Positions 13,025 to 36,185 of a stretch of 64,000 nt of DNA are shown piece by piece. Where the stretch lies: positions 62,001 through 126,000 of the forward strand of contig JAHBTI010000003.1 in NCBI GenBank assembly GCA_019638705.1. Reading direction: 5' to 3'. The position numbers and the translations under genes were made by a program. This stretch comes from Bacteroidota bacterium. Its GTDB lineage: Bacteria; Bacteroidota; Bacteroidia; B-17B0; Aurantibacillaceae. Each line of letters begins with the position of its first letter. The stretch's first letter is position 1. The notes below the pieces were generated by a model that saw only the letters and a program-made list of their open reading frames with translations, was not told where the DNA came from and searched no databases.

Positions 13025-13029
13025 CAGTT

Positions 13030-13182
13030 GAAGTTGTGTAAAGTCCCCCTGTCACTTCGAGTAGCCCGAAGAATGAGGGCATATCGAGAAGTGATTTTAC
13101 GGTTTCAGTTCTCGATAAGGTTTGCAAAGAGGCAGCAAACCTACTCGAACTGACAATTCTTTATTGGACTTTAGACAATTTC
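13030..13182 (+). repeat. BIME-like element copy A (153 bp, GTAG-REP pair with terminal inverted repeats)
   Basis: Outer inverted repeats (GAAGTTGTGTAAAGTCC at the left, GGACTTTAGACAATTTC at the right) enclose an inner inverted repeat beginning GTCACTTCGAG and ending CTCGAACTGAC. Inside are two GTAG-plus-hairpin units facing each other: GTAG at 13061 with the GCCC/GGGC stem, and CTAC at 13141 (GTAG on the minus strand) with the GGTTTGC/GCAAACC stem. Copy B at 14209 has the same length and differs at only about 5 positions. Shortened and enlarged relatives lie at 20094 and 27292. Confidence 0.85.
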
Positions 13183-13214: not shown

Positions 13215-14204
13215 ATGTTTACAATAGATACGCACACGCACATCATTCCAAAAACCTTACCTGATTTTTCAAAAAAATTCGGTTACGGAGATTTTATTAC
13301 CTTGGAACATCACACGCAGGGCAAAGCCCGCATAATGCAGGGCGGAAAATTTTTCAGAGAAATTCTTGAAAACTGCTGGAACGCAGAAATTCGCCTGAAA
13401 GAAATGGAAGAGCATAAAGCGGATATGCAGGTTATTTGCACCATTCCCGTGATGTTCAGCTATTGGGCAAAAGCAAATGATTGTTTGGAGTTGAGCAAAT
13501 TTTTGAACGATGATATTGTAACAACCGTAAACAAGTATCCGAAAAAATTTGTGGGTTTGGCAACTGTTCCCATGCAAGATACAAAACTTGCCATTCAGGA
13601 ATTGGAACGTTGCATGAAAAACGGATTTAAAGGCGTGCAAATTGGCAGCAACATCAACAACTTAAATTTAAACGAAAAACAATTTGACGAATTTTTTGCT
13701 GCTTGCGAAAGTTTAAATGCCGCAATCTTGGTACACCCATGGCAAATGATGGGACAAGAAAACATGACAAAATATTGGCTGCCTTGGTTGGTGGGAATGC
13801 CCGCAGAAATAAGCCGCGCAATATGCAGCATGATTTTTGGCGGCGTGTTTGAAAAATACAAAAACTTAAAAGTTTGTTTTGCGCACGGCGGCGGCTCGTT
13901 TTTACCGACAATAGGGCGCATTGAACATGGCTGGGATTGCCGTCCCGATTTGGTTGCCATTGACAACGCAAAAAATCCCAAAGAATATCTCGGAAAATTT
14001 TGGGTGGACAGCCACACCTGCGACCACAAAATGCTGCAATACGTTATTGATTTGGTTGGCGCAGACAAAATTATGCAGGGCAGCGATTATCCTTTTCCTT
14101 TGGGTGAAGCTGTACCGGGCGACTTAGTACGCAGCGCACCCATTACGGAAAATGAAAAAGAAAAAATTTTGGGATTGAGTGCCAAAAGTTGGTTGGGGAT
14201 TTAA
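13215..14204 (+). CDS. Aminocarboxymuconate-semialdehyde decarboxylase-like amidohydrolase (ACMSD)
   Basis: 329 residues, the length of ACMSD. Similarity to the animal and bacterial enzyme runs end to end from memory: the zinc-binding start IDTHTHIIPKTLPDF (about 4-18), FGYGDFITLEHH, ENCWNAEIRLKEM, PVMFSYWAKAND, VHPWQMMGQENMTKYWLPW (about 174-192), CFAHGGGSFLPTIGRIEHGW with the catalytic His, and GSDYPFPLGE with the metal-binding Asp. The enzyme decarboxylates ACMS in the kynurenine branch of tryptophan breakdown, away from quinolinate. No other kynurenine gene is in the window. It is flanked by two direct copies of the 153-bp BIME element. Confidence 0.9.
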   Translation: MFTIDTHTHIIPKTLPDFSKKFGYGDFITLEHHTQGKARIMQGGKFFREILENCWNAEIRLKEMEEHKADMQVICTIPVMFSYWAKANDCLELSKFLNDDIVTTVNKYPKKFVGLATVPMQDTKLAIQELERCMKNGFKGVQIGSNINNLNLNEKQFDEFFAACESLNAAILVHPWQMMGQENMTKYWLPWLVGMPAEISRAICSMIFGGVFEKYKNLKVCFAHGGGSFLPTIGRIEHGWDCRPDLVAIDNAKNPKEYLGKFWVDSHTCDHKMLQYVIDLVGADKIMQGSDYPFPLGEAVPGDLVRSAPITENEKEKILGLSAKSWLGI

Positions 14205-14208
14205 TTAT

Positions 14209-14361
14209 GAAGTTGTCTAAAGTCCCCCTGTCACTTCGAGTAGCCCGAAGAATGAGGGCGTATCGAGAAGTGACTTTACGGCTTCAGTTCTCGATAAGGT
14301 TTGCAAAGAGGCAGCAAACCTACTCGAACTGACAATTCTTTATTGGACTTTAGACAACTTC
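14209..14361 (+). repeat. BIME-like element copy B (153 bp)
   Basis: Same orientation and length as copy A, with perfect 17-bp terminal inverted repeats (GAAGTTGTCTAAAGTCC and its complement). It starts 5 bp after the ACMSD stop codon and ends 25 bp before the stop of the convergent Omp85 gene. It may also act as a terminator hairpin for both genes. The five differences from copy A include both outer ends and single bases in the loops; the two GTAG hairpins are intact. Confidence 0.85.
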
Positions 14362-20093: not shown

Positions 20094-20199
20094 GTCAGTT
20101 CGAGTAGCCGACGACAGGAGGCGTATCGAGAAATGACATTACGAAGAAATCAGTTCTCGATATGGTTTGCAAAGAGGCAGCAAACCTACTCGAACTGAC
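20094..20199 (+). repeat. BIME-like element copy C (inner module only, 106 bp)
   Basis: Bounded by the inner inverted repeat GTCAGTTCGAGTAG (20094-20107) and CTACTCGAACTGAC (20186-20199). It lacks the outer TTGTCTAAAGTCC arms of copies A, B and D, so the inner module can exist alone. The first hairpin differs in sequence (GTAGCCGACGACAGGAGGC) yet keeps a GCC/GGC pairing. The GTTTGC/GCAAAC hairpin of the second arm is identical to the others. Confidence 0.8.
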
Positions 20200-20222
20200 A
20201 GAGAAAACCTTAGATTTACCAA

Positions 20223-21557: not shown

Positions 21558-21566
21558 TTAAATTCG

Positions 21567-21668
21567 CTCTGAAATTTTTCAGGTTATGATTGAAACTGTT
21601 CCTTACCAAACCAAAAATAAAGTTCGTATTGTTACCGCAGCAGCCTTGTTTGACGGGCACGATGCAGC
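21567..21668 (+). repeat. Left 102-bp direct repeat of the R-M island
   Basis: The 102 bases from CTCT to GATGCAGC are repeated at 27515-27616 with one mismatch (the base after CTCT). They carry the last part of the icmF leader and its first 27 codons. Beyond the repeat the two copies share nothing: this one runs into the end of the res gene after 7 bp. Confidence 0.95.
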
Positions 21669-21672
21669 GTAA
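21586..21672 (+). pseudogene. Duplicated 5' fragment of icmF (28 codons)
   Basis: ATG at 21586 begins a frame identical to the first 27 codons of icmF, then one more codon (GCG) and a TAA formed at the junction. The peptide would end in FDGHDAA, in the middle of the cobalamin-binding motif, so it has no function. It lies between the deacetylase-like gene and res and marks where icmF began before the island arrived. Confidence 0.85.
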
Positions 21673-21675
21673 ATT

Positions 21676-24228
21676 CTATTCACTCAACACACTTTCTAAT
21701 GTTAATTTAAACTCATTTTCTCTGTCGTAGTTATAAAACGGAACGGCTGTAATGCGATACGTGTCGGTATGAATTTTTACTGTTTTCTTATCCTTGCGAA
21801 GTGCTTGCAAAAAATCTTCTTTCCATTTATCGTGAGAAATCAAATGCGTTCCTTTCGGCTCTATGAAAACCTGATATGTCAATAAATTATTTTGCTTTTG
21901 TTTACAAAACAATACAAAGTCAGGCTCAAAGGCTCTGCCTTTTTCATCAATAACTTTTATTTCACGCTCATTGCGTATCAAATAAATATTATCAAATTTC
22001 TCTTTTAAATTTTCAAAACGCCTTGAAAACAATTCCACAAATTTTTTCTCTTCACTTGTGCCATAATTTGCATTATACACATACCACGCTTCGTTGGCAA
22101 CCAAGTTTTCTTGCCCATTGGCGCGCTCACTATCTTTGTTAATGCGAAGTTCTTTGTCTTTAAAAATTTTGTGTACATAATCTTTGATATATTCAGAGCC
22201 TTCGTATTCTGTTGTATTTGTTTTTATATCAGTTTCAATGTTTCGCAGTAATCCGTTTAGTGCTTGCAGGTAATCATAATGCGAAATTTCCTGTAAGCGG
22301 CTATACGTCCCGTTAAATGTAAGCTCCAAATCACCCAAAAAATCATTACTTGCAATAAATTCAAATTGTGAATTCAAATTCGGAAAATAGCGTTGTAAAT
22401 TATCAAAATAATAAAACGGATTTCGCTCTAATGCACACCAAATAACGTGTTTCTGAATATCAACAAGTTTCACGTCTTTGCTTTTAATTACTTCGTCATT
22501 TGAAATCGTATTCTCCATTTCAAAAAACACACTCGACATTCTGCCCACGCCCGATGAAAGCGTATGGCGATAATTCACTTTCTTTACACCTAAATCGGAA
22601 AATGATTTTATTTTTTGATAATCTCTTTCTTGAAGTTTATTAAATATGACTTGACCTGTTCTGTAAAATTCAGTCTTTTTGAATTCATCTTTTAGTGTAA
22701 GTTGTTTTGTAACCAAATTTGTGTCGTCTTCATAAATTCCTGATTCTACAAGAGCTTTTTTGATTTCGGAAATGTAGCGACTGTCTTCTTTTGTATGGTA
22801 ATACAATTCTTCCAGCACTTTTAAATCGTTGGAAATATCATCGTCAAATTTTCTGGTGTATTTATCTTGTTTTGCTTCTAACACAAAAGGAAAATATCTT
22901 GCACCACGCCCAATTAACTGCGCTTCCGACAAAGTTGTTTTACCCGGTTTTCCGTCTTTTCCGTCACGGTCTTCGTACAAACGAACAATGTCAAACAAAT
23001 TCAAAACGTCCCAACCTTCATTTAATTTCTGTACGGCAAAAATGGCACGGATTGGATTGTTTTCATCTTCTAACGTGTTCAGTAAAATTTGATTTTTATC
23101 GGCTTCGGTATCGTTGTTTGCGCTCAAACAATTTTCAAAACGGAAATTGGCTTGTACGCGTTTTACAATTTCATTTTCCGAAATTCCTTTACTTGCAAAG
23201 AATTTAAAGGCTTTTTGAACGATTGAAACAGTTGCCGTTTTTTGAATTTTCTCAATCATTGAAACCGAAAAATCATCAATCAACTTGTGAAACTTTTCTT
23301 TGTTTTGTTCAGATTCCGAAATTGTCTTTTTCGCTTTGAAAAGAATTACAGGCTTTAGATTGATGTTGTTTGATGTGGCTAATTCTTGCCGATACAAATT
23401 CAAAATTAGGGCTTGTATGATGCGTTCTTGCTCGTCATACTGCGAACGAATAAGATTAATTTCTTTTGAATACTTGTCAATGCGAAATTGAGCAAGGTCG
23501 TATTTGTAAATTACTTTGTCTTGGTATTTGTTTACAATTTCTCGGCTTTCGTAATCCAATGTAGCGGTAAATTCTAAAAGAATGTTGTCAAAACTTTGAT
23601 TGAGAATTTGCATTACCGTTTGTTCCCAACTGCCAAACAAATCGCCACTTTTTGTGCCACTGTTCAAATGGTGGGCTTCATCGGCAATCAACACTATTTT
23701 TTTGTTTTCAAAGTCTTCGTAAGTAACGCTGTTTTCTTTGGTGTTGTTTAGGTCAATGTGCAGTTGCTGAATGGTGGTAAATTTGATGTTGATGTTTTGC
23801 GTGTCGGCTTCTTCAAAGTTTTCAATTTCCTTTATCTGCACATCTTTTCCGCCAATTACGATTTTGTTCTTGAACAGATATTTTGAAGCGTTTGCGTTCA
23901 AAAAATTGTCTTTTGTTTTTTGAATGATGTTGTTTGAGTTTACAAAAAACAAAAAGTTGCGATAACCCTTTTCGTACAAGTTCAAAATTAAACCTGCCAT
24001 TACTAAGGTTTTTCCGCTTCCTGTTGCCATATTGAACAACAAATGATACGGTTTTTTCGGTTTTTCTTCAAAGTTTTCTTGCTCTAAATACAAGTAGCGT
24101 TTAAATGCTTCTTCTTGGTACGGACGTATGCCGTATTTCAAATTATCGGTAATGCAGTTTGCTATTTCAACTTGCGACAAAGCTTTTTTAGCAAACGGAT
24201 TGTTGAATATCTCGTGTAAAAATGCCAT
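21676..24228 (-). CDS. res: Type III restriction enzyme subunit (Res)
   Basis: 850 residues. Superfamily 2 helicase motifs in order: LLFNMATGSGKTLVMAGLIL (Walker A, about 63-82), LIADEAHHLNSG (DEAH, about 179-190), LEFTATLDY (motif III), and NEGWDVLNLFDIVRLYED with QLIGRGARYFPF as motifs V and VI. The C-terminal PD-(D/E)xK nuclease is visible as EPDFVLFCKQ followed by VFIEPKGTHL (about 763-795). It cuts DNA after ATP-driven communication between two unmethylated sites, with Mod. It lies 3 bp after mod. Length is slightly shorter than EcoP15I Res but all motifs are present, so it looks intact. Confidence 0.92.
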   Translation of the reverse strand: MAFLHEIFNNPFAKKALSQVEIANCITDNLKYGIRPYQEEAFKRYLYLEQENFEEKPKKPYHLLFNMATGSGKTLVMAGLILNLYEKGYRNFLFFVNSNNIIQKTKDNFLNANASKYLFKNKIVIGGKDVQIKEIENFEEADTQNINIKFTTIQQLHIDLNNTKENSVTYEDFENKKIVLIADEAHHLNSGTKSGDLFGSWEQTVMQILNQSFDNILLEFTATLDYESREIVNKYQDKVIYKYDLAQFRIDKYSKEINLIRSQYDEQERIIQALILNLYRQELATSNNINLKPVILFKAKKTISESEQNKEKFHKLIDDFSVSMIEKIQKTATVSIVQKAFKFFASKGISENEIVKRVQANFRFENCLSANNDTEADKNQILLNTLEDENNPIRAIFAVQKLNEGWDVLNLFDIVRLYEDRDGKDGKPGKTTLSEAQLIGRGARYFPFVLEAKQDKYTRKFDDDISNDLKVLEELYYHTKEDSRYISEIKKALVESGIYEDDTNLVTKQLTLKDEFKKTEFYRTGQVIFNKLQERDYQKIKSFSDLGVKKVNYRHTLSSGVGRMSSVFFEMENTISNDEVIKSKDVKLVDIQKHVIWCALERNPFYYFDNLQRYFPNLNSQFEFIASNDFLGDLELTFNGTYSRLQEISHYDYLQALNGLLRNIETDIKTNTTEYEGSEYIKDYVHKIFKDKELRINKDSERANGQENLVANEAWYVYNANYGTSEEKKFVELFSRRFENLKEKFDNIYLIRNEREIKVIDEKGRAFEPDFVLFCKQKQNNLLTYQVFIEPKGTHLISHDKWKEDFLQALRKDKKTVKIHTDTYRITAVPFYNYDRENEFKLTLESVLSE

Positions 24229-24231
24229 TGC

Positions 24232-25938
24232 TTATTTGGTTAGTTGGTAAAAATCTTTGGTTATTCTCTTTTCCTCTTCGGTACATTTAAACTGTTTGTC
24301 GTTAAGCGAAGCAAGGTTTACATAAAGCTGGTTTTTGTTGAGCAATTCGCACAAATGTTGCTTTTGTTCTGCCAACTCCAACGCTTTAAATTCTTCAATA
24401 TGTTCGTCTTGTTTTTTGATGTCCACATTGTAATTGAGGAACGATTTTTCTTTCATCAATTCCCAAATTTTCAATAATGCTTTTGTGTCTTTGGCTTCTT
24501 CAATTTGCTCAATAAATGTTTGGTTGTATTTTTTGAGTTCAAGGTAAACGTAATTTATTTCCTTAGACCTGTCTTTGATTATTGAATGAGTGTTTTCAAG
24601 TTGCTCAACTAAAATGAATTGTCTGTTTAAGTAATCCGAAACAAAACCTGTCGTTCCGCTTCCTGCGAAAAAATCAAGAACAATGTCATTTTCGTTTGAA
24701 TGAGCCTTAATTAAACGTTCAATAAGTTTGTATGGTTTTTCGGTTAGATAACCCGAACGTTTTTTTCCGTCAACTCTAATTCGTGCGGCAACTGCTATTT
24801 TCCACCAATCTTTATTTTGAACTTTTTCGTACTCGTCATATAAAGCTGACATTTCTTCAACAAACTCATTTTTATCTCGCCCTGCTTCCCACCAATCTTC
24901 TGGAATTTTTCCTTTGTTTGTATATTCATCGCTAACATCAGCACTCATTTCATTATTAAAACCACCAACGTGCACTTCCGAAGTCATACGCACATCATCA
25001 CCATTGAAAACCCAATTATTATTGGATTTTGAGTACCACAAAATATTGTCGTGCTTTCTGTTGTACTGCTTCATTTTAGGCGAACCTGGTCCGTGATACG
25101 CCCAAATAATTTCATTTCTAAAATTTTCTCTGTCAAAAACAGAATCAAGCAAAATCTTCACATAGTGAATTTCATTCCAGTCGGCTTGTACTAATATACT
25201 GCCGTCATTTGAAAGAAGTTCTTTTGCTGCTTCCAAACGGTTTTTCATAAATGTTAGCCAAGATGAATGATTAAATCTGTCATTATATCCAAATGAATCT
25301 CCACCTGTGTTGTAAGGCGGGTCTATGTAAATGAGTTTTACTTTTCCTGCAAATTCTTCTTTGAGCGTATGCAATGCCAAAAGGTTATTACCTTTTACAA
25401 TAAGATTATCGGTAATTGTACTGTCTGCGTTGCGGTTAAATTGGTCAAGCGGTTTTTCTCCGCTTGTGTCAATGCGTTTTACGTTGGTTAAAACTTTAGG
25501 GTCTAAAAGTTGGGTAATTTCGTCTTGTGCTAAAATTTCGTTGAAGAAAATTTCTTCTCGTTTATCTTCTTCACGGCTTTGTCCGCCCTCCAAAACGCAA
25601 TCTTTAAATGGCCACACTAAAGAAACTTCGTTGCGTTGTTTTAGAAATTTGTTACCTATAGTTAAGCCAACTTTGTTTTTGTATTGTGTATAACTATCGT
25701 TCAGATAATTTTTCTGTTCCAAAAACTGAATGAAAAGATTTTGATTGAAAACAGTCGCTCCTGAAACTGTTTTGAAAAATTTGCTTTTCAATTCTGCGTT
25801 GTCAAGCAACAACGCCAAAAGTTCTTCGTCAAAATTTTGTGCTTTGTTAATTACAACCCATTTTTTTAGTTCGCCATTGTCGGCAACGTAATTGTTTTCT
25901 TTTTTGAGTTGTGTTTCGAGAATTTTAAATAGTTTCAT
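24232..25938 (-). CDS. mod: Type III DNA adenine methyltransferase (Mod)
   Basis: 568 residues from the ATG at 25938. A longer frame runs into a palindrome and is rejected because MKLFKILETQ is a typical Mod beginning. Class beta order: motif IV IYIDPPYNTGGDSFGYNDRF (about 204-223) precedes motif I VLDFFAGSGTTGFVSDYLNR (about 422-441). The variable recognition region lies between them (about 285-400). It methylates adenine in one strand of an asymmetric site and is needed for Res to recognise DNA. The target sequence cannot be read here. It is followed after 3 bp by res. Confidence 0.93.
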   Translation of the reverse strand: MKLFKILETQLKKENNYVADNGELKKWVVINKAQNFDEELLALLLDNAELKSKFFKTVSGATVFNQNLFIQFLEQKNYLNDSYTQYKNKVGLTIGNKFLKQRNEVSLVWPFKDCVLEGGQSREEDKREEIFFNEILAQDEITQLLDPKVLTNVKRIDTSGEKPLDQFNRNADSTITDNLIVKGNNLLALHTLKEEFAGKVKLIYIDPPYNTGGDSFGYNDRFNHSSWLTFMKNRLEAAKELLSNDGSILVQADWNEIHYVKILLDSVFDRENFRNEIIWAYHGPGSPKMKQYNRKHDNILWYSKSNNNWVFNGDDVRMTSEVHVGGFNNEMSADVSDEYTNKGKIPEDWWEAGRDKNEFVEEMSALYDEYEKVQNKDWWKIAVAARIRVDGKKRSGYLTEKPYKLIERLIKAHSNENDIVLDFFAGSGTTGFVSDYLNRQFILVEQLENTHSIIKDRSKEINYVYLELKKYNQTFIEQIEEAKDTKALLKIWELMKEKSFLNYNVDIKKQDEHIEEFKALELAEQKQHLCELLNKNQLYVNLASLNDKQFKCTEEEKRITKDFYQLTK

Positions 25939-25978
25939 AATGCTACGGTAAAAAATCGCGCAGGCTAATTGCTTTCTC

Positions 25979-26090
25979 GTAGCTGAGGTTCTCGAATACC
26001 TGTACAACAAAGAAAAGCAACGCCTACGCTTACCGTAGGCGCTGTGCTTTTACTTCCCTGTTGTACCTAAATTTTCGAGATTTCAGCTAC
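25979..26090. repeat. 112-bp imperfect palindrome upstream of mod
   Basis: Four blocks pair in order: GTAGCTGA with TCAGCTAC at the outer ends, TCTCGAA with TTCGAGA, GTACAAC with GTTGTAC, and CGCCTACG with CGTAGGCG around a 5-nt loop (26029-26033). An additional CTACGGTA at 25943-25950 repeats the inner arm. The long hairpin begins 40 bp upstream of the mod start codon and could form a cruciform or an RNA hairpin in the mod leader. No protein-coding content fits it. Confidence 0.85.
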
Positions 26091-26158
26091 AGGTTGTTTA
26101 GCAAAACGCTAATGTGTTATGTAATTAATTTTATTTTTTAATTCAATTCTTCTTTAGT

Positions 26159-26599
26159 TTACAATAATGCTTTGTATTTCCGTTTTACTGTTTTTGAATT
26201 TTTAAAACAGTTTATTATTTCGTTAAAAACAGTTTGTGTCATTTTGCCCCATACTTCATAGTTTAACCCTTCCACAGGATAAATTTCATTCATCAATTTT
26301 GTTTCGTAAGTATCGAGTTAATGTCCATATAAATGCGTTTTAAACTGAAAACCTTTTCCGTTAGTAGTTATTTGCGCATTAGGCGCAATTACAAAACAAT
26401 TAAAGTTGCTTTCGGGCAGTTCCACACAACCCATTTGTGTTTCGTGGGTTTGTGGCACAAAATCTTTGCTGCTTGGCAGGGAAGCCAATATGCTTTTTCC
26501 CTCAAAAACTTTAAGCACTATAAAATACTTGGATTTGGCAAGGTTTCCGTTTTTAAAATAAAAAGGGTCAAAATAAATAATGTTGCCTTGCTCAAACAT
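26159..26599 (-). pseudogene. Partner gene of the Panacea antitoxin, split by an in-frame stop codon
   Basis: The first 93 codons (26599 to 26321) begin GNIIYFDPFYFKNGNLAKSK, reminiscent of the start of PemK/MazF-like toxins. A TAA follows at 26320-26318. In the same frame 52 more codons continue without interruption (LDTYETK, then NEIYPVEGLNYEVWGKM, ending KRKYKALL) to a stop at 26161-26159. The second part has protein-like composition, with Trp, Tyr and a basic end. A single C-to-T change of a CAA codon would explain the stop. The whole product would be about 146 residues. It begins 3 bp after the SocA-domain gene. Confidence 0.7.
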
Positions 26600-26602
26600 A
26601 TC

Positions 26603-27181
26603 TTAATTATTTTCTAAGTAATCGCGATATATTTCTTTTTTTACGGCATCGTGCTCTACTAAAAGGCTCAAATCAATTAAAAATTCGGTGTTGTTTATTT
26701 CTGCTTTTTCCAACATCTGTAATACCGAATTTTCTATGGCAGCATTGTGCCAAGGCGAGTTTGGGCGATGTGTGTATGCAATTAATTCTTTTGCCGATTT
26801 GTTGCCGAAAGTTTTTATCACTTCATTCATCAAGTCAATATCGTTATCGGAAAATTCGCTGTCGTCAAACTGTTTTTTTGCTTTGATGATAACGGTGGTT
26901 TCATTTTCATAAACCTTGTCAATGTATTTTGCCAACAAAGTGGTTTCAGAAGATAAATCAATAAACAATTCTTCCGAAACGGGACCGAATTTCCACACCT
27001 TGTATTTTAAATTCAAAAACGGAATACCGCTTTTTTTAATGGACAATTCATCTAAAATATACAATAATTTAAGCAATTTGGTTTTAGAAAGTTGCGGAAT
27101 ATGTTCACTTAAATACACCGTTGTATTCCCGATTTTTTCTAATTGTTCTTTGCTGAATTTTATATACGGAACTGTACTCAT
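26603..27181 (-). CDS. Panacea/SocA-domain antitoxin
   Basis: 192 residues from the ATG at 27181; a strong promoter lies directly upstream, which excludes the 43-codon longer frame. The Panacea (SocA, DUF4065) core is visible: SKTKLLKLLYILDELSIKKS (about 31-50), LKYKVWKFGPVSEELFIDLS (about 57-76), and AKELIAYTHRPNSPWHNA (about 136-153), where the late THRPNSPW pattern is typical. Panacea proteins neutralise many unrelated toxins encoded beside them. Here the partner lies 3 bp downstream and is broken. The pair sits inside the R-M island, so it may have served for island maintenance. Confidence 0.8.
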   Translation of the reverse strand: MSTVPYIKFSKEQLEKIGNTTVYLSEHIPQLSKTKLLKLLYILDELSIKKSGIPFLNLKYKVWKFGPVSEELFIDLSSETTLLAKYIDKVYENETTVIIKAKKQFDDSEFSDNDIDLMNEVIKTFGNKSAKELIAYTHRPNSPWHNAAIENSVLQMLEKAEINNTEFLIDLSLLVEHDAVKKEIYRDYLENN

Positions 27182-27188
27182 GGTCAGG

Positions 27189-27218
27189 CAAAAGTAAAAT
27201 TTCTTTTGGAGGCACAAA
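27189..27218 (-). promoter_or_regulatory. Promoter of the Panacea/toxin operon
   Basis: On the minus strand TTTG (27218-27215) and TACTTTTG (27196-27189) are separated by 18 nt, an exact Bacteroidota -33/-7 pair. Transcription would start within a few bases of the ATG at 27181, giving an almost leaderless mRNA. Confidence 0.65.
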
Positions 27219-27291
27219 AATACTGCTTTTTGTATAAGGTTCAGCTTTTGCACCATTCGCACAATCAGCAACATCATTTCTCTTTTTAAAA

Positions 27292-27480
27292 GAAGCTGTC
27301 TAAAGTCCAATCAAGAATTGTCAGTTCGAGTAGGTTTGCTGCCTCTTTGCAAACTGCGGCAATAATGCAGGTCATTATTGAGCGAGCTTGTGGGAAAGAG
27401 AACTGAAGCCGTAAAATCACTTCTCGATACGCCCTCATTCTTCGGGCTACCCGAAGTGACAGGTGACTTTAGACAACTTC
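27292..27480 (-). repeat. BIME-like element copy D (189 bp, inverted, with internal extra palindrome)
   Basis: Inverse orientation to copies A and B. Terminal repeats are GAAGCTGTCTAAAGTCC and GACTTTAGACAACTTC. Relative to copy B about 36 bp more are present in the middle, including AATAATG CAGGT CATTATT at 27361-27379. The GTAG hairpins are otherwise kept. It lies 34 bp inside the right 102-bp repeat of the R-M island and upstream of the Panacea promoter. Confidence 0.85.
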
Positions 27481-27514
27481 ACCAAGAAATCCCTAAAAAA
27501 TCGTAGATTTATCC

Positions 27515-27616
27515 CTCTAAAATTTTTCAGGTTATGATTGAAACTGTTCCTTACCAAACCAAAAATAAAGTTCGTATTGTTACCGCAGCAGCCTTGTTTG
27601 ACGGGCACGATGCAGC
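27515..27616 (+). repeat. Right 102-bp direct repeat of the R-M island
   Basis: It matches 21567-21668 with one mismatch. This copy is part of the intact icmF gene: 19 bp of leader plus the first 27 codons and two bases of codon 28. The DNA between the repeats (21669-27514, 5846 bp) carries only res, mod, the palindrome, the Panacea pair and BIME copy D. Confidence 0.95.
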
Positions 27617-30600
27617 CATTAATATTATGCGCCGTGTGATGCAAAGTTCGGGTGCGGAAATTATTCACTTGGGACACGACCGCAGCGTAAAAGAAATTGT
27701 GGACTGCGCCATTCAGGAAGATGCCAACGCCATTGCCATTACAAGCTATCAGGGCGGACACAACGAATATTTCAAATACATGTACGACTTGCTGAAAGAA
27801 CGCGGTTGTTCACACATCAAAATTTTCGGCGGCGGCGGCGGAACAATTTTGCCTTCCGAAATTGAAGATTTACATAATTACGGCATTGCCCGCATTTATC
27901 ACCCTGACGATGGTCGCGCTATGGGCTTGCAAGGCATGATTAACGATGTGCTGAAACAAAGCGATTTTGCCACAGGCGCAAATTTGAACGGCGAAGTAAA
28001 ACATCTCAAAGAAAAAGATTACAAATCCATTGCGCGATTAATTTCTGCGGCAGAAAATTTTAACGAAGAAAGCAAAGCCATTTTAGAGCCCATTCGCAAA
28101 GAAGCAAAAACTTCTAAAACGCCTATACTTGGCATTACAGGCACAGGCGGCGCAGGAAAATCATCTTTGGTTGATGAATTGGTGCGTCGTTTCTTGTTGG
28201 ATTTTCCCGACAAAAAAATCGGTATCATTTCCGTTGACCCAAGCAAACGCAAAACAGGTGGCGCGTTGCTCGGCGACAGAATTCGCATGAACTCTATCCG
28301 AAACGAACGTGTGTATATGCGCTCACTCGCTACTCGTCAAAGCAATTTAGCGTTGAGTAAATATGTACACGATGCTTTGGATATTTTAAAAGTGTCAAAC
28401 TTTGATTTAATCATTATTGAAACGGCGGGTATCGGACAAAGCGATACCGAGATTATTGAGCACAGCAACATGAGCCTCTATATTATGACGCCCGAATTTG
28501 GTGCAGCATCGCAGTTAGAGAAAATTGACATGCTGGAGTTCGCCGACATTGTTGCCATAAATAAATTTGACAAACGCGGTGCGCAAGATGCTTTGCGCGA
28601 TGTGAAAAAACAATACAAACGCAATCACAATTTGTTTGATGCCAAAGATGAAGATTTGCCTGTGTATGGTACAATTGCTTCGCAGTTTAACGACCCGGGA
28701 ACAAACTCTTTGTACAAAGCCGTAATGGATAAAATGGTGGAAAAAACAGGTGCAAATCTTAAATCCAACTTTAAGATTACGGACGAAATGAGCGAAAAAA
28801 TTTACATCATTCCGCCAAGCAGAACACGTTATTTGAGCGAGATTTCAGAAACTTCGCGCAACTATGACAAATGGGCGAACGAGCAAAGCAACATTGCCTT
28901 GAAACTGCAAAGCATTCGTGAAACCATTGTTACCATTAAAAATTCCAAAATGACGGACAAAGACCGTTTGATAAAAAGTTTGGAAGAACAAGCCGAAATT
29001 ATTCGCTTGGAAATTGACCCGAAAAATTTGAAAACATTGGAAACTTTTGGCGATAAGAAAAAAAATTATCAAAACGAGTTTTACATTTTCAAAGTGCGCG
29101 ACAAGGAAATTAAAATTAAAACGCATTACGAAAGTTTGTCGCACACGCAAGTACCAAAAGTTGCCGTGCCGAGCTACACAGGTTGGGCCGATATTTTAAA
29201 ATGGAGTTTGCGCGAAAATTTTCCCGGTGAATTTCCTTACACGTCGGGCATTTATCCGTTTAAGCGTGAAGGCGAAGACCCGACAAGAATGTTTGCAGGC
29301 GAAGGTGGACCTGAACGCACCAACAAACGTTTTCACTATGTAAGTTTGGGAATGCCCGCGCACCGCTTGAGTACAGCCTTTGACAGCGTTACGCTTTACG
29401 GAAACGACCCCGACCACCGTCCTGATATTTACGGAAAAATCGGCAACTCAGGAGTGAGCGTGTGTTGCTTGGACGATGCAAAAAAATTGTACAGCGGCTT
29501 CAATCTCTCTGACCCGAAAACTTCTGTGTCCATGACGATTAACGGTCCTGCGGCGACAATCGCAGCGTTTTTTATGAATGCTGCCATTGACCAACAATGC
29601 GAATTGTATATCAAGCAAAACGGTTTGGAAAAAGAAGTCAATAAAAAAATTGAAGACATTTATAAAGCAAAAGGTACGAAACGCCCTCAATACAATGCTT
29701 CCGAACTGCCCGAAGGAAACAACGGATTAGGTTTAATGTTGCTTGGCGTTACAGGCGACCAAGTGTTGCCGAAAGATGTGTACGAAAAAATAAAAGCGCA
29801 AACTTTGTCGCACGTGCGCGGCACGGTGCAAGCCGATATTTTGAAAGAAGACCAGGCGCAAAACACTTGCATTTTTTCAACGGAATTTTCGTTGCGCGTT
29901 ATGGGTGATGTGCAGCAATATTTTATTGATAAGAATGTGCGCAATTTTTATTCTGTTTCAATTAGTGGTTATCACATTGCCGAAGCGGGTGCAAATCCTA
30001 TTTCGCAGTTGGCATTTACTTTGTCAAACGGATTTACCTTTGTGGAATATTATTTAAGTCGCGGCATGAACATTAATGATTTCGCACCGAACTTATCGTT
30101 CTTTTTCAGCAACGGCATTGACCCTGAATATTCGGTGATTGGTCGCGTAGCCCGCCGTATATGGGCAAAAGCAATGAAGAACAAATACGGTGCAAATGAA
30201 CGCAGTCAAATGTTGAAATATCATATTCAAACTTCTGGTCGTAGTTTGCACGCGCAGGAAATTGATTTCAATGACATTCGTACAACACTTCAAGCTCTTT
30301 ACGCAATTTACGACAACTGCAATTCGCTTCACACCAATGCTTACGACGAAGCGATTACCACGCCAACGGAAGAAAGCGTGCGCCGCGCTATGGCAATTCA
30401 GTTAATCATTAACCGCGAATTAGGTTTGGCGAAAAACGAAAATCCTTTGCAAGGCTCTTTCATTATTGAAGAATTAACGGACTTGGTGGAAGAAGCTGTG
30501 TTGAGCGAGTTTGACCGCATTACAGAACGCGGCGGTGTTCTCGGCGCAATGGAAACCATGTATCAACGCGGAAAAATTCAGGAAGAAAGTTTGTATTACG

Positions 30601-30917
30601 AAACTTTGAAACATAATGGCGAATATCCGATTATCGGTGTGAATACATTTTTGAGTTCAAAAGGCAGCCCTACTATTTTACCGAAAGAAGTTATCCGTTC
30701 CACTACCGAAGAAAAAGAAGCGCAAATTGCCACGCGCAACAACCTTTGGGAAACGCACAAAGACACAGGCGCACAAGCTTTGAAAGATTTGCAGCACGCA
30801 GCCATTCAAAACAAAAATATGTTTGAAGGCTTAATGGAAGCCGTAAAATATTGTTCGCTCGGACAAATTACAAATGCTTTGTTTGAAGTGGGCGGGCAGT
30901 ATAGGAGGAATATGTAG
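27534..30917 (+). CDS. icmF: Fused isobutyryl-CoA mutase (IcmF)
   Basis: 1127 residues, the length of IcmF. Domains: N-terminal cobalamin-binding ([13 protein letters not shown], about 23-35; [11 protein letters not shown]), a MeaB-like G-protein chaperone ([20 protein letters not shown], about 200-219; [18 protein letters not shown]), a helical linker, and the C-terminal acyl-CoA mutase barrel from [20 protein letters not shown] (about 574-593) onward. The Phe in the IYPFKR segment, where methylmalonyl-CoA mutase has Tyr, fits isobutyryl specificity. It interconverts isobutyryl-CoA and n-butyryl-CoA with adenosylcobalamin. Its 5' end was duplicated when the R-M island entered. Confidence 0.92.
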
Positions 30918-30942: not shown

Positions 30943-31329
30943 ATGATACAATCTCAATTTGTAAAAGATATTTTAGATTTATTGTTTGACGGAGATGAGT
31001 TTGGTTTGTCAACTCGTAAACAAATGGATTTTTTAACAGAAAGCAAATATGATTATACTGGAATAGGCGTATTCATTCATTTTATCCATACAGAAGGAAT
31101 AAATCAATATAGATTAAACGAAGATGATGTAATATTGGGAGTAAAAGTTAAAGATGATAAGAATAGCATTGATGGATATGCACAAGTTTTTACTAAAAAT
31201 GGAATTGTTGATTATTTAGAAATAGTTAACGATATTGGAGATTACCCCAAAAAAGAATTAGACAATTATATTTTGATACAGGAGTGGAAAGGAGCACCCG
31301 GCAGAACTATAGTAAGAAATAAAGGTTAA
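30943..31329 (+). CDS. Hypothetical protein, first gene of a formerly coupled pair
   Basis: 128 residues with no signal peptide and no family I recognise. It is acidic, with a helical start (FVKDILDLLFDGDEFGLSTR) and beta-rich middle (GIGVFIHFIHTEG, DDVILGVKVKDD, GYAQVFTKNGIVDYLEI). The ORF is clean and begins 25 bp after icmF. Its TAA overlaps an ATG (TAATG at 31327-31331) that was the start of the gene now at 32101, before the zeta-toxin module moved in between. A size of 128 residues and a lone small acidic fold would suit an immunity-type or regulatory protein, but this is only a guess. Confidence 0.7.
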   Translation: MIQSQFVKDILDLLFDGDEFGLSTRKQMDFLTESKYDYTGIGVFIHFIHTEGINQYRLNEDDVILGVKVKDDKNSIDGYAQVFTKNGIVDYLEIVNDIGDYPKKELDNYILIQEWKGAPGRTIVRNKG

Positions 31330-31359
31330 TGAAAAAAAAATCTTCGCCACATATTTAAA
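31328..31359 (+). repeat. Left copy of the 31/32-bp duplication flanking the zeta module
   Basis: AATG, nine A, TCTTCGCCACATATTTAAA. The right copy at 32100-32130 is the same with eight A. This copy preserves the original TAATG junction with the preceding gene; the additional A makes it out of frame, so it encodes only a 9-residue stub. Confidence 0.85.
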
Positions 31360-31361
31360 CA

Positions 31362-31931
31362 ATGCCTAATTTATACATCATAGCGGGTTGTAATGGCGCG
31401 GGAAAAACTACGGCAAGTCTTACAATTTTGCCTGATGTTTTGCAATGCAATGAATTTGTAAATGCCGATAGCATCGCAAAAGGATTGTCGCCATTTAATG
31501 AGGAAGCAGTTGCTTTTGAAGCGGGACGAATTATGCTTAATCGCATTCAAGAGTTGCTTCACAAAAAAACAGATTTCGCCATTGAAACCACTTTGGCAAG
31601 CAAAAGTTATGCTTCATTAATTCGTCAGGCTAAAAAATCAGGTTACGAAGTTCACTTGATTTTCTTTTGGTTAAATTCCGTTGAATTAGCGAAAGAGCGT
31701 GTACAACAACGGGTTTTAAACGGCGGACATAATATTGATAAAGCTGTGATAGAAAGAAGATACAAAGCGGGCTTACAAAATTTCAATAAAATATTTTGTA
31801 ATTTGGTTGACAATTGGTTTATCTATGACAATTCAAATAATGAGACAGAGCCGATTGCCGAAAAAATTAAAGGATTTGATTTGAAAATTTTTAACATTGA
31901 AAAATATAAAAGGATAGAAAATGAAAACTAA
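31362..31931 (+). CDS. Zeta-toxin family kinase
   Basis: 189 residues. Walker A IIAGCNGAGKTTASL (about 6-20), the catalytic region FVNADSIAKGLSPFNEE (about 31-47), and FAIETTLASKSYASLI (about 70-85) with the conserved Glu-Thr-Thr-Leu. The Arg-rich lid is in RVQQRVLNGGHNID (about 115-128). Family members phosphorylate UDP-N-acetylglucosamine and so block cell-wall synthesis. It shares 11 nt with the next small gene. Both lie inside a module flanked by a 31/32-bp duplication. Confidence 0.85.
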   Translation: MPNLYIIAGCNGAGKTTASLTILPDVLQCNEFVNADSIAKGLSPFNEEAVAFEAGRIMLNRIQELLHKKTDFAIETTLASKSYASLIRQAKKSGYEVHLIFFWLNSVELAKERVQQRVLNGGHNIDKAVIERRYKAGLQNFNKIFCNLVDNWFIYDNSNNETEPIAEKIKGFDLKIFNIEKYKRIENEN

Positions 31932-32094
31932 AATTGAAAATTTATCTGAAAAAATCCGCAGGGGGTTGCGTTTATCATACATCAAATTGATAAAAGAAAA
32001 AGCAAAAGAAGACAGTGATTTGATATTTAGCGACAACGGAAAAATTGTGCGCGTAAAAGCCAAACAATTGTTGAGTGAATTGAATATTCATTAA
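31921..32094 (+). CDS. Small basic partner protein of the zeta toxin (57 residues)
   Basis: The ATG at 31921 lies inside the last codons of the zeta gene (11-nt overlap in another frame). The product begins MKTKIENLSEKIRRGLRL, continues with a helical Lys-rich segment and a short hairpin (DLIFSDNGKIVRVKAKQL), and ends LSELNIH. Helix plus GKIVRVK is a pattern I recall in small proteins next to chromosomal zeta-like ATPases of Bacteroidota. An antitoxin role is likely from position and overlap but not shown. Confidence 0.65.
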   Translation: MKTKIENLSEKIRRGLRLSYIKLIKEKAKEDSDLIFSDNGKIVRVKAKQLLSELNIH

Positions 32095-32099
32095 AAAAC

Positions 32100-32130
32100 A
32101 ATGAAAAAAAATCTTCGCCACATATTTAAA
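32100..32130 (+). repeat. Right copy of the 31/32-bp duplication flanking the zeta module
   Basis: AATG, eight A, TCTTCGCCACATATTTAAA: the first ten codons of the 104-residue gene starting at 32101. It differs from the left copy only in the length of the A run. Confidence 0.85.
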
Positions 32131-32415
32131 AACAAAGATTATTTGTTGGACGAGCCTGAAGTGCAAGAGTTATTGGATTATTGCGAAGAATTGCAAGAAG
32201 AATTAATTGAAGCGAATTTTAAAGAAGACAAAAATAAAGAAGCCGTTTTAAAAGAAATGTTGGAAGATATTTTGGCTTCTTGCCGAAAAGTGCAAAAAGA
32301 ACAGGAAGAACATGTGCGTTTCGGCTATCCGCCTGCCAATTTTGAAGCAGCGATTGAGAATTTGAAAAAGTACATTATTGTTCGTTGCAGGGACGAAAAA
32401 ATTTACATTAATTAG
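32101..32415 (+). CDS. Hypothetical coiled-coil protein, second gene of the formerly coupled pair
   Basis: 104 residues, predicted mostly helical: VQELLDYCEELQEELIEANF (about 21-40), KEAVLKEMLEDILASCRK (about 46-63), then a short domain with HVRFGYPPANFEAAIENLKK (about 71-90) and a basic end. It could bind nucleic acid or a partner, but I do not recognise the family. Its first ten codons are duplicated at 31329, so the zeta module separates it from its former neighbour at 30943. The gene itself remained intact because the module carries or regenerated its 5' end. Confidence 0.7.
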   Translation: MKKNLRHIFKNKDYLLDEPEVQELLDYCEELQEELIEANFKEDKNKEAVLKEMLEDILASCRKVQKEQEEHVRFGYPPANFEAAIENLKKYIIVRCRDEKIYIN

Positions 32416-35652: not shown

Positions 35653-35889
35653 ATGAAAGCCATTGCCATAAAAAAAGAAATGTATCATGCCATTGACGTG
35701 ATTGAGGATAAAGATTTTTTAAAAGCTATTTATACTTTGTTGAATGACAAATCAAAGGAATACGATTATGAATTAACTGATGATGATAAAGCCGAATTGG
35801 ATAGTTTGAAAAAGCAAAACAAAGCGGGCAAACTCAAATCCACAACTTTAGAACAAATCAGGAAAAATGCTCACAGCAAAAACCGATAA
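35653..35889 (+). CDS. Antitoxin of a RelE/ParE-type pair
   Basis: 78 residues. The N-terminal helix pair (KKEMYHAIDVIEDKDFLKAI) and a charged helical tail (TDDDKAELDSLKKQNKAGKL, then TTLEQIRKNAHSK) fit the small addiction-module antitoxins of Bacteroidota, whose tails bind the toxin. Its TAA overlaps the toxin ATG by 1 bp (TAATG), so the two are translationally coupled. Confidence 0.8.
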   Translation: MKAIAIKKEMYHAIDVIEDKDFLKAIYTLLNDKSKEYDYELTDDDKAELDSLKKQNKAGKLKSTTLEQIRKNAHSKNR

Positions 35890-36185
35890 TGAAATATGTT
35901 TTAGACATAAAAATATCGGCTGAAAAAGGCGTGCTGAAAGCATTTGATTATTACGAGTCAAAACAACAAGGCTTAGGTGAGCGTTTTTTAGAACGTTGGG
36001 AAGTAAAAATTGAACTTATTAAGCAAAACCCTTTACTGTTTCAAAAAAAGTACAAAAATTTTCGGCAAGTTTTATTAGAACCTTATCCTTATCATATCGT
36101 TTATGAGGTAGAGGAAAATATAATAAGCGTGTATAAAGTTATTTACGCAGGCAGAAGTTCCCGTAAACGTTACAGCAAGAAGTAA
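35889..36185 (+). CDS. RelE/ParE-family toxin
   Basis: 98 residues. ISAEKGVLKAFDYYESKQQG (about 9-28), LGERFLERWEVKIELIKQNP, FRQVLLEPYPYHIVYEVEEN (about 58-77) and a final strand VYKVIYAGRSSRKRY are the helical pair and sheet of the RelE/ParE fold. Members cut mRNA on the ribosome or poison gyrase; sequence does not decide which. No frame damage is seen. Confidence 0.87.
   Translation: MKYVLDIKISAEKGVLKAFDYYESKQQGLGERFLERWEVKIELIKQNPLLFQKKYKNFRQVLLEPYPYHIVYEVEENIISVYKVIYAGRSSRKRYSKK

Follow-up and report, generated by a model that had tools for sequence, protein, structure and literature searches.

A zeta-type kinase gene and its small partner, probably inserted at a gene start with a 31-bp duplication, and the recurrence of such scars around related modules

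The window, i.e. the whole analyzed stretch of 64,000 nucleotides of a genome from the phylum Bacteroidota, contains a zeta-type kinase gene and a small overlapping gene, both located between two copies of a short direct repeat. The features of this locus are as follows:
30943-31329, plus strand: 128-aa ORF upstream of zeta, without a Pfam or NCBIfam family
31328-31359, plus strand: left target copy, a stub of the 104-aa gene's start; its ATG overlaps the stop of the 128-aa ORF
31362-31931, plus strand: zeta-type kinase gene, a putative toxin (Pfam match, Walker A motif GCNGAGKTT and other family-conserved residues)
31921-32094, plus strand: 57-aa partner gene, a putative antitoxin, overlapping zeta by 11 nt; a homolog follows zeta in most relatives
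32100-32130, plus strand: right target copy, the 104-aa gene's native 5' end; similarity to relatives extends past the copy
32101-32415, plus strand: 104-aa ORF, with the probable insertion at its start; relatives occur in one further genus of this family and in a Flavobacterium-like genus

The zeta protein (189 aa) matches PF06414 (Zeta_toxin) with E=4e-15 and 56 bits, the curated cut-off being 22.3, and its sequence and alignment show that the Walker A motif and further family-conserved kinase residues are kept; no PDB relative was found by sequence at E<=0.001. Across the class, a loose criterion places a small gene directly downstream of zeta in 108 of 120 loci, the overlaps being mostly 11, 14 or 4 nt, and zeta with the 57-aa gene is a conserved two-gene unit across the class. 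The 57-aa protein has no Pfam or NCBIfam family match, and its model (pLDDT 90), in which a long helix is followed by a beta-hairpin and a second, short helix, has no significant fold match in PDB. Judging from sequence, zeta is a putative toxin here, and the 57-aa protein is probably its antitoxin. The Zeta_toxin kinase domain (PF06414) is common to this unit and the epsilon-zeta and PezAT systems. The canonical epsilon sits upstream of zeta, whereas the partner here is downstream, overlapping, about 48-63 aa long, and matches no Pfam, NCBIfam or solved fold. The ORF upstream of zeta in the window, encoding 128 aa, has no family match that would make it an epsilon-type antitoxin, and it is not found beside zeta elsewhere, the conserved partner being the downstream gene.

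The two target copies match in 31 of 32 positions, the sole difference being a single A in a homopolymer that counts eight or nine residues, depending on the copy. The left copy is AATGAAAAAAAAATCTTCGCCACATATTTAAA, and the right one is one A shorter. Their identical core of 27 nt (31333-31359 and 32104-32130) is at the top of the direct-repeat list for 26-36 kb. The ATG of the left copy (31329-31331) overlaps the TAA of the 128-aa ORF (31327-31329) as TAATG; this copy ends 2 bp ahead of the zeta start codon, while the right one starts 5 bp past the stop of the 57-aa ORF and continues into the 104-aa ORF. Between the copies there are two sizeable sense-strand ORFs, zeta and the 57-aa gene, neither of them a recombinase, and thus no transposase or integrase is present in the unit. 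In all these points (the 31-bp duplication with an additional A at the left, the TAATG overlap and the content of the unit) the preliminary description was accurate.

The ungapped score of the left flank against the right one is 27, the maximum in 469 mismatched-flank pairs from other loci being 14, and the gapped score is 57 with the null maximum of 38; these null scores exclude a chance origin of the repeat. DNA similarity to relatives of the 104-aa gene runs beyond the right copy (AAAAACAAAGAT), and hence the right copy is native and the left one a stub. Both junctions carry the microhomology AAACAATG. The copies are too short and too alike to separate donor from recipient, and the target, being a gene start, is atypical compared to other duplicated zeta loci.

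Relatives of the 104-aa protein with 61-69% identity were found in one further genus of the family, and others in the Flavobacterium-like genus g67. There are nine of them outside the source genome, and the upstream side was read in eight (the ninth is at a contig end): a SulP-type transporter gene is upstream in one case, a 2Fe-2S reductase gene is at or near seven, and no homolog of the 128-aa gene or zeta is present in any of the eight. A related-locus search with the 104-aa protein gave no match. The 128-aa gene has one convincing relative, which is broken and not accompanied by the 104-aa gene. The joined window flanks would put the 128-aa stop over the 104-aa start, and the preliminary description had treated the two genes as a former translationally coupled pair split by the toxin unit. 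The insertion with target duplication at the start of the 104-aa gene is upheld by our analysis; the former pair is implied by the left junction alone, and the relatives lend it no support. The proposed search for the two genes as direct neighbors without zeta yielded no such genome, the 104-aa relatives having other neighbors; among the sampled genomes, there was neither an adjacent pair nor an empty site corresponding to the window.

The same description suggested looking for other zeta modules flanked by duplications. We compared the left and right flanks (450 bp each) of the unit in 117 zeta+57 loci, using as a control 413 equally spaced blocks (pseudo-modules) within the same loci, with a duplication threshold score of at least 50. 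Flanking direct duplications of 28-223 bp were found in 21 of 117 loci and in 5 of 413 control blocks (Fisher 9e-11). The strict count, leaving out L078, L092, L121 and L162 as probable dispersed repeats judged by eye from the sequences, is 17 of 117 (P=3e-8). Overall, roughly every sixth or seventh sampled relative of the module across the class bears a comparable scar. About 80% of zeta loci have no duplication; these may be older or otherwise inserted.

The right copy starts 0-12 bp past the stop of the small gene (p57) in 13 of 23 listed cases, and the left copy ends 2-331 bp ahead of zeta. The duplicated sequence belongs in each case to the locus itself, the genes hit are unrelated, and it differs at nearly every site, mostly being a gene 3' end or a terminator; no repeat motif shared across the loci was seen, and no recombinase was recognized in the units read. 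The targets, with gene names read from the sequences, include:
L175: pyrH 3' end
L072: ALDH 3' end
L101: adenosylhomocysteinase 3' end
L105: protease-like gene
L111: RuvX 3' end
L186, L183, L150 and L152: terminators
L089: carB 3' end
The duplication in L163 is near the noise level. In the empty-site comparison, the far flank was not conserved beside the target at L072, L105 and L255 (for L072, the ALDH query was approximate, with only the first ~25 residues coming from this locus, and served only to locate ALDH genes).

Empty sites are found at the carB 3' end. In L089 (genome G185 of the Flavobacterium-like genus) zeta and p57 lie between two copies of ~111 bp, and the joined flanks with one copy match uninterrupted in at least 11 congeners (G377, the nearest with 98%, G478, G505, G457, G452, G379, G150, G444, G483, G481 and G423). 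Three other genomes have different occupants at this place: another zeta unit with a ~123-bp duplication in G465, a remnant ending in p57-like sequence with a ~115-bp duplication in G413, and a gene encoding a 610-aa ATPase (best NCBIfam match MAD3, far below the cut-off) with a ~107-bp duplication in G472. These four occupants may be separate insertions, or one insertion with exchanged cargo. The carB 3' end is variable among congeners in general (L240, L241, L242, L245, L246, L248, L249), with a ~180-aa lipoprotein-like gene, zeta units or the 610-aa ATPase gene in different congeners. Insertion with target duplication is thus supported by the same signature around many relatives and by the empty sites with a single copy seen among the congeners of one such relative, and to a lesser extent by the window alone.

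Similar duplications are observed around other cargo. In a HigB sample of at most 30 loci, six have flanking duplications with scores of at least 50, behind HigA (null maximum 32). In particular, 164 bp of the mfd 3' end are duplicated at the HigBA locus of G032, and 77 bp behind an aquaporin-like gene at another one. The mfd 3' end is a hotspot: in G543 (L304), a stretch of 5 kb contains three additional fragments of this end, interspersed with accessory ORFs.

The window itself contains a second, longer duplication at the start of icmF, upstream of the 128-aa ORF:
21564-21668, plus strand: left copy of the second duplication (105 bp), a stub of the icmF 5' end
21676-27310, minus strand: cargo of the second insertion, R-M-like genes and a SocA/Panacea-like gene, namely the next four ORFs
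21676-24228, minus strand: helicase/res-like ORF
24232-26010, minus strand: adenine methyltransferase gene (mod-like)
26318-26599, minus strand: 93-aa ORF
26603-27310, minus strand: SocA/Panacea-like gene
27512-27616, plus strand: right copy of the second duplication, the native icmF start
27534-30917, plus strand: icmF, a 1127-aa fused methylmalonyl-CoA mutase-type gene, named from its own sequence and not by family search

The 105-bp copies have 2 differences and bracket the type III R-M region (21669-27511), confirming the other long duplication, 4 kb away, that had been remarked on earlier. The common local mechanism proposed from this proximity proved too local an explanation, as the signature recurs at unrelated genes class-wide and around HigBA. 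Dispersed near-identical repeats of up to about 150 bp are also present in the window (13029-13182, 14208-14361, 20150-20200 and, inverted, 27289-27463), two of them bracketing a 329-aa ORF (13215-14204). A small gene pair at 35653-36185 (78 and 98 aa) has a toxin-antitoxin-like look and no Pfam match.

The opposite end of icmF is occupied in a relative. In G014 (L060, 10382-11121) zeta and the 57-aa gene are located directly after the icmF stop; this zeta is frameshifted, is the nearest relative of the window zeta in the tree, and has no detectable duplication around the unit. Thus, a location of the module close to this site may predate the present arrangement. In L050 (G012), a different P-loop kinase-like ORF (RGLPGAGKTTLAKLL) begins just downstream of icmF. 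Such genes may thus use the 3' end of icmF as a landing place.

In our view, the likely origin of the window arrangement is a homology-anchored insertion that placed the two-gene unit directly behind the 128-aa gene and ahead of the 104-aa gene and gave rise to the 31-bp duplication. A compact toxin-antitoxin-like unit with no recombinase of its own would have entered at this boundary, most likely by homologous/illegitimate recombination: homology would hold one end of the incoming DNA, the other end would be attached by chance or through microhomology, and the stretch between the two joins would consequently be present twice. The flanking copies could later allow exchange or loss of the unit by homologous recombination.

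Codon differences between copies are informative here. In six zeta loci, 26 of 36 differences are synonymous (P=4e-9 against 25%); this count omits L112, whose ORF start is doubtful (1 synonymous, 5 not), and with it the count is 27 of 42. Such mostly synonymous differences, unlike those of a decaying stub, suggest that one copy came with donor DNA. Homology-anchored illegitimate recombination is favored by these differences, by the many copies that end close to gene ends, and by the microhomology found at both junctions in the window.

The strongest competitor, possible albeit with less than even probability, is true target duplication, where a staggered cut or replicative insertion by a trans-acting enzyme would produce both copies from recipient DNA. 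The differences at the carB hotspot resemble neutral decay (6 of 17 synonymous) and some copy pairs are identical or nearly so (both window duplications, L186, L183, L113, L255), which keeps this explanation viable. Single copies in the empty sites, the nearly same right junction at carB (query 419-423) in four genomes, and L255, where the left mfd gene lacks its last codons and the right fragment retains an mfd-like end, fit it as well. On the other hand, the duplications range from about 28 to 223 bp and the units share no common ends, the units read have no recognized recombinase, and the divergence is mostly synonymous at L175, L105, L138, L101 and, partly, L072. Both processes may occur.

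It is rather unlikely that zeta and the 57-aa gene were first behind icmF, as their position in G014 and the affinity of the two zeta genes might suggest, with the 128-aa gene and the 104-aa stub brought later by icmF recombination from a strain with the order icmF-128-104. This would require the 104-aa gene to be behind the 57-aa gene before the 128-aa gene came, two events instead of one, and 19 of 20 sampled relatives have no zeta behind icmF. Insertions at gene 3' ends with repeats resemble attL/attR of genomic islands, but it is very improbable that the repeats are attachment-site cores of an element that lost its integrase, since almost every locus has a repeat of its own sequence and length, the 0.75-kb units carry just two genes, and the window site is a gene start. 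Finally, although the window repeat is short and includes an A-run, chance or an assembly error is hardly credible, given 27 exact nucleotides at both module edges, the far lower null maxima and the same geometry across many genomes.

Homology-anchored insertion has known parallels. According to PMC3874152 and PMC3031569, R-M systems insert with long target duplications of variable length, in the order of 100 bp (Nobusato et al. 2000 and Furuta et al. 2010, as cited there). These are likewise addiction-type units without a transposase of their own, and here, too, the unit is bracketed by direct repeats that derive from the target and measure tens to hundreds of bp; the type III R-M module of the window fits directly. 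The differences from the R-M case are the toxin-antitoxin-like cargo (zeta+57 here, HigBA elsewhere) in another bacterial group, and the duplications (28-223 bp) that mostly affect the 3' ends of genes or terminators, with some copy pairs being donor/recipient-like. Homology-facilitated illegitimate recombination is described (e.g. in PMC3240628) from transformation and conjugation experiments, with one homologous and one illegitimate end and foreign DNA placed beside the homologous anchor, whereas here it is deduced from natural loci alone. In searches of open-access literature, judged mostly from titles and abstracts, we found no report of toxin-antitoxin modules with such target duplications. 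By its layout, the window scar matches insertion with long target duplication, which would thereby be extended from R-M systems to toxin-antitoxin units.

More generally, we tentatively propose, rating it as somewhat less probable than the opposite, that in this class chromosomal toxin-antitoxin units and other accessory genes commonly spread as repeat-flanked cassettes, with the duplicated stretch at either end. Homology-anchored recombination into gene 3' ends and terminators would create them, and the copies would permit exchange, stacking (as behind mfd in G543) or precise loss by homologous recombination. If true, such cassettes would be a form of general integrase-free mobility. The scar orients the insertions (by native copy, length and allele), making them countable and testable across genomes; it also connects toxin-antitoxin modules with restriction-modification systems, for which mobility has been proposed. 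It has long been asked how chromosomal toxin-antitoxin modules spread when no mobile element is in evidence, and the recurrent scar points to a route by which modules of the zeta+57 type could move although they encode neither transposase nor integrase.
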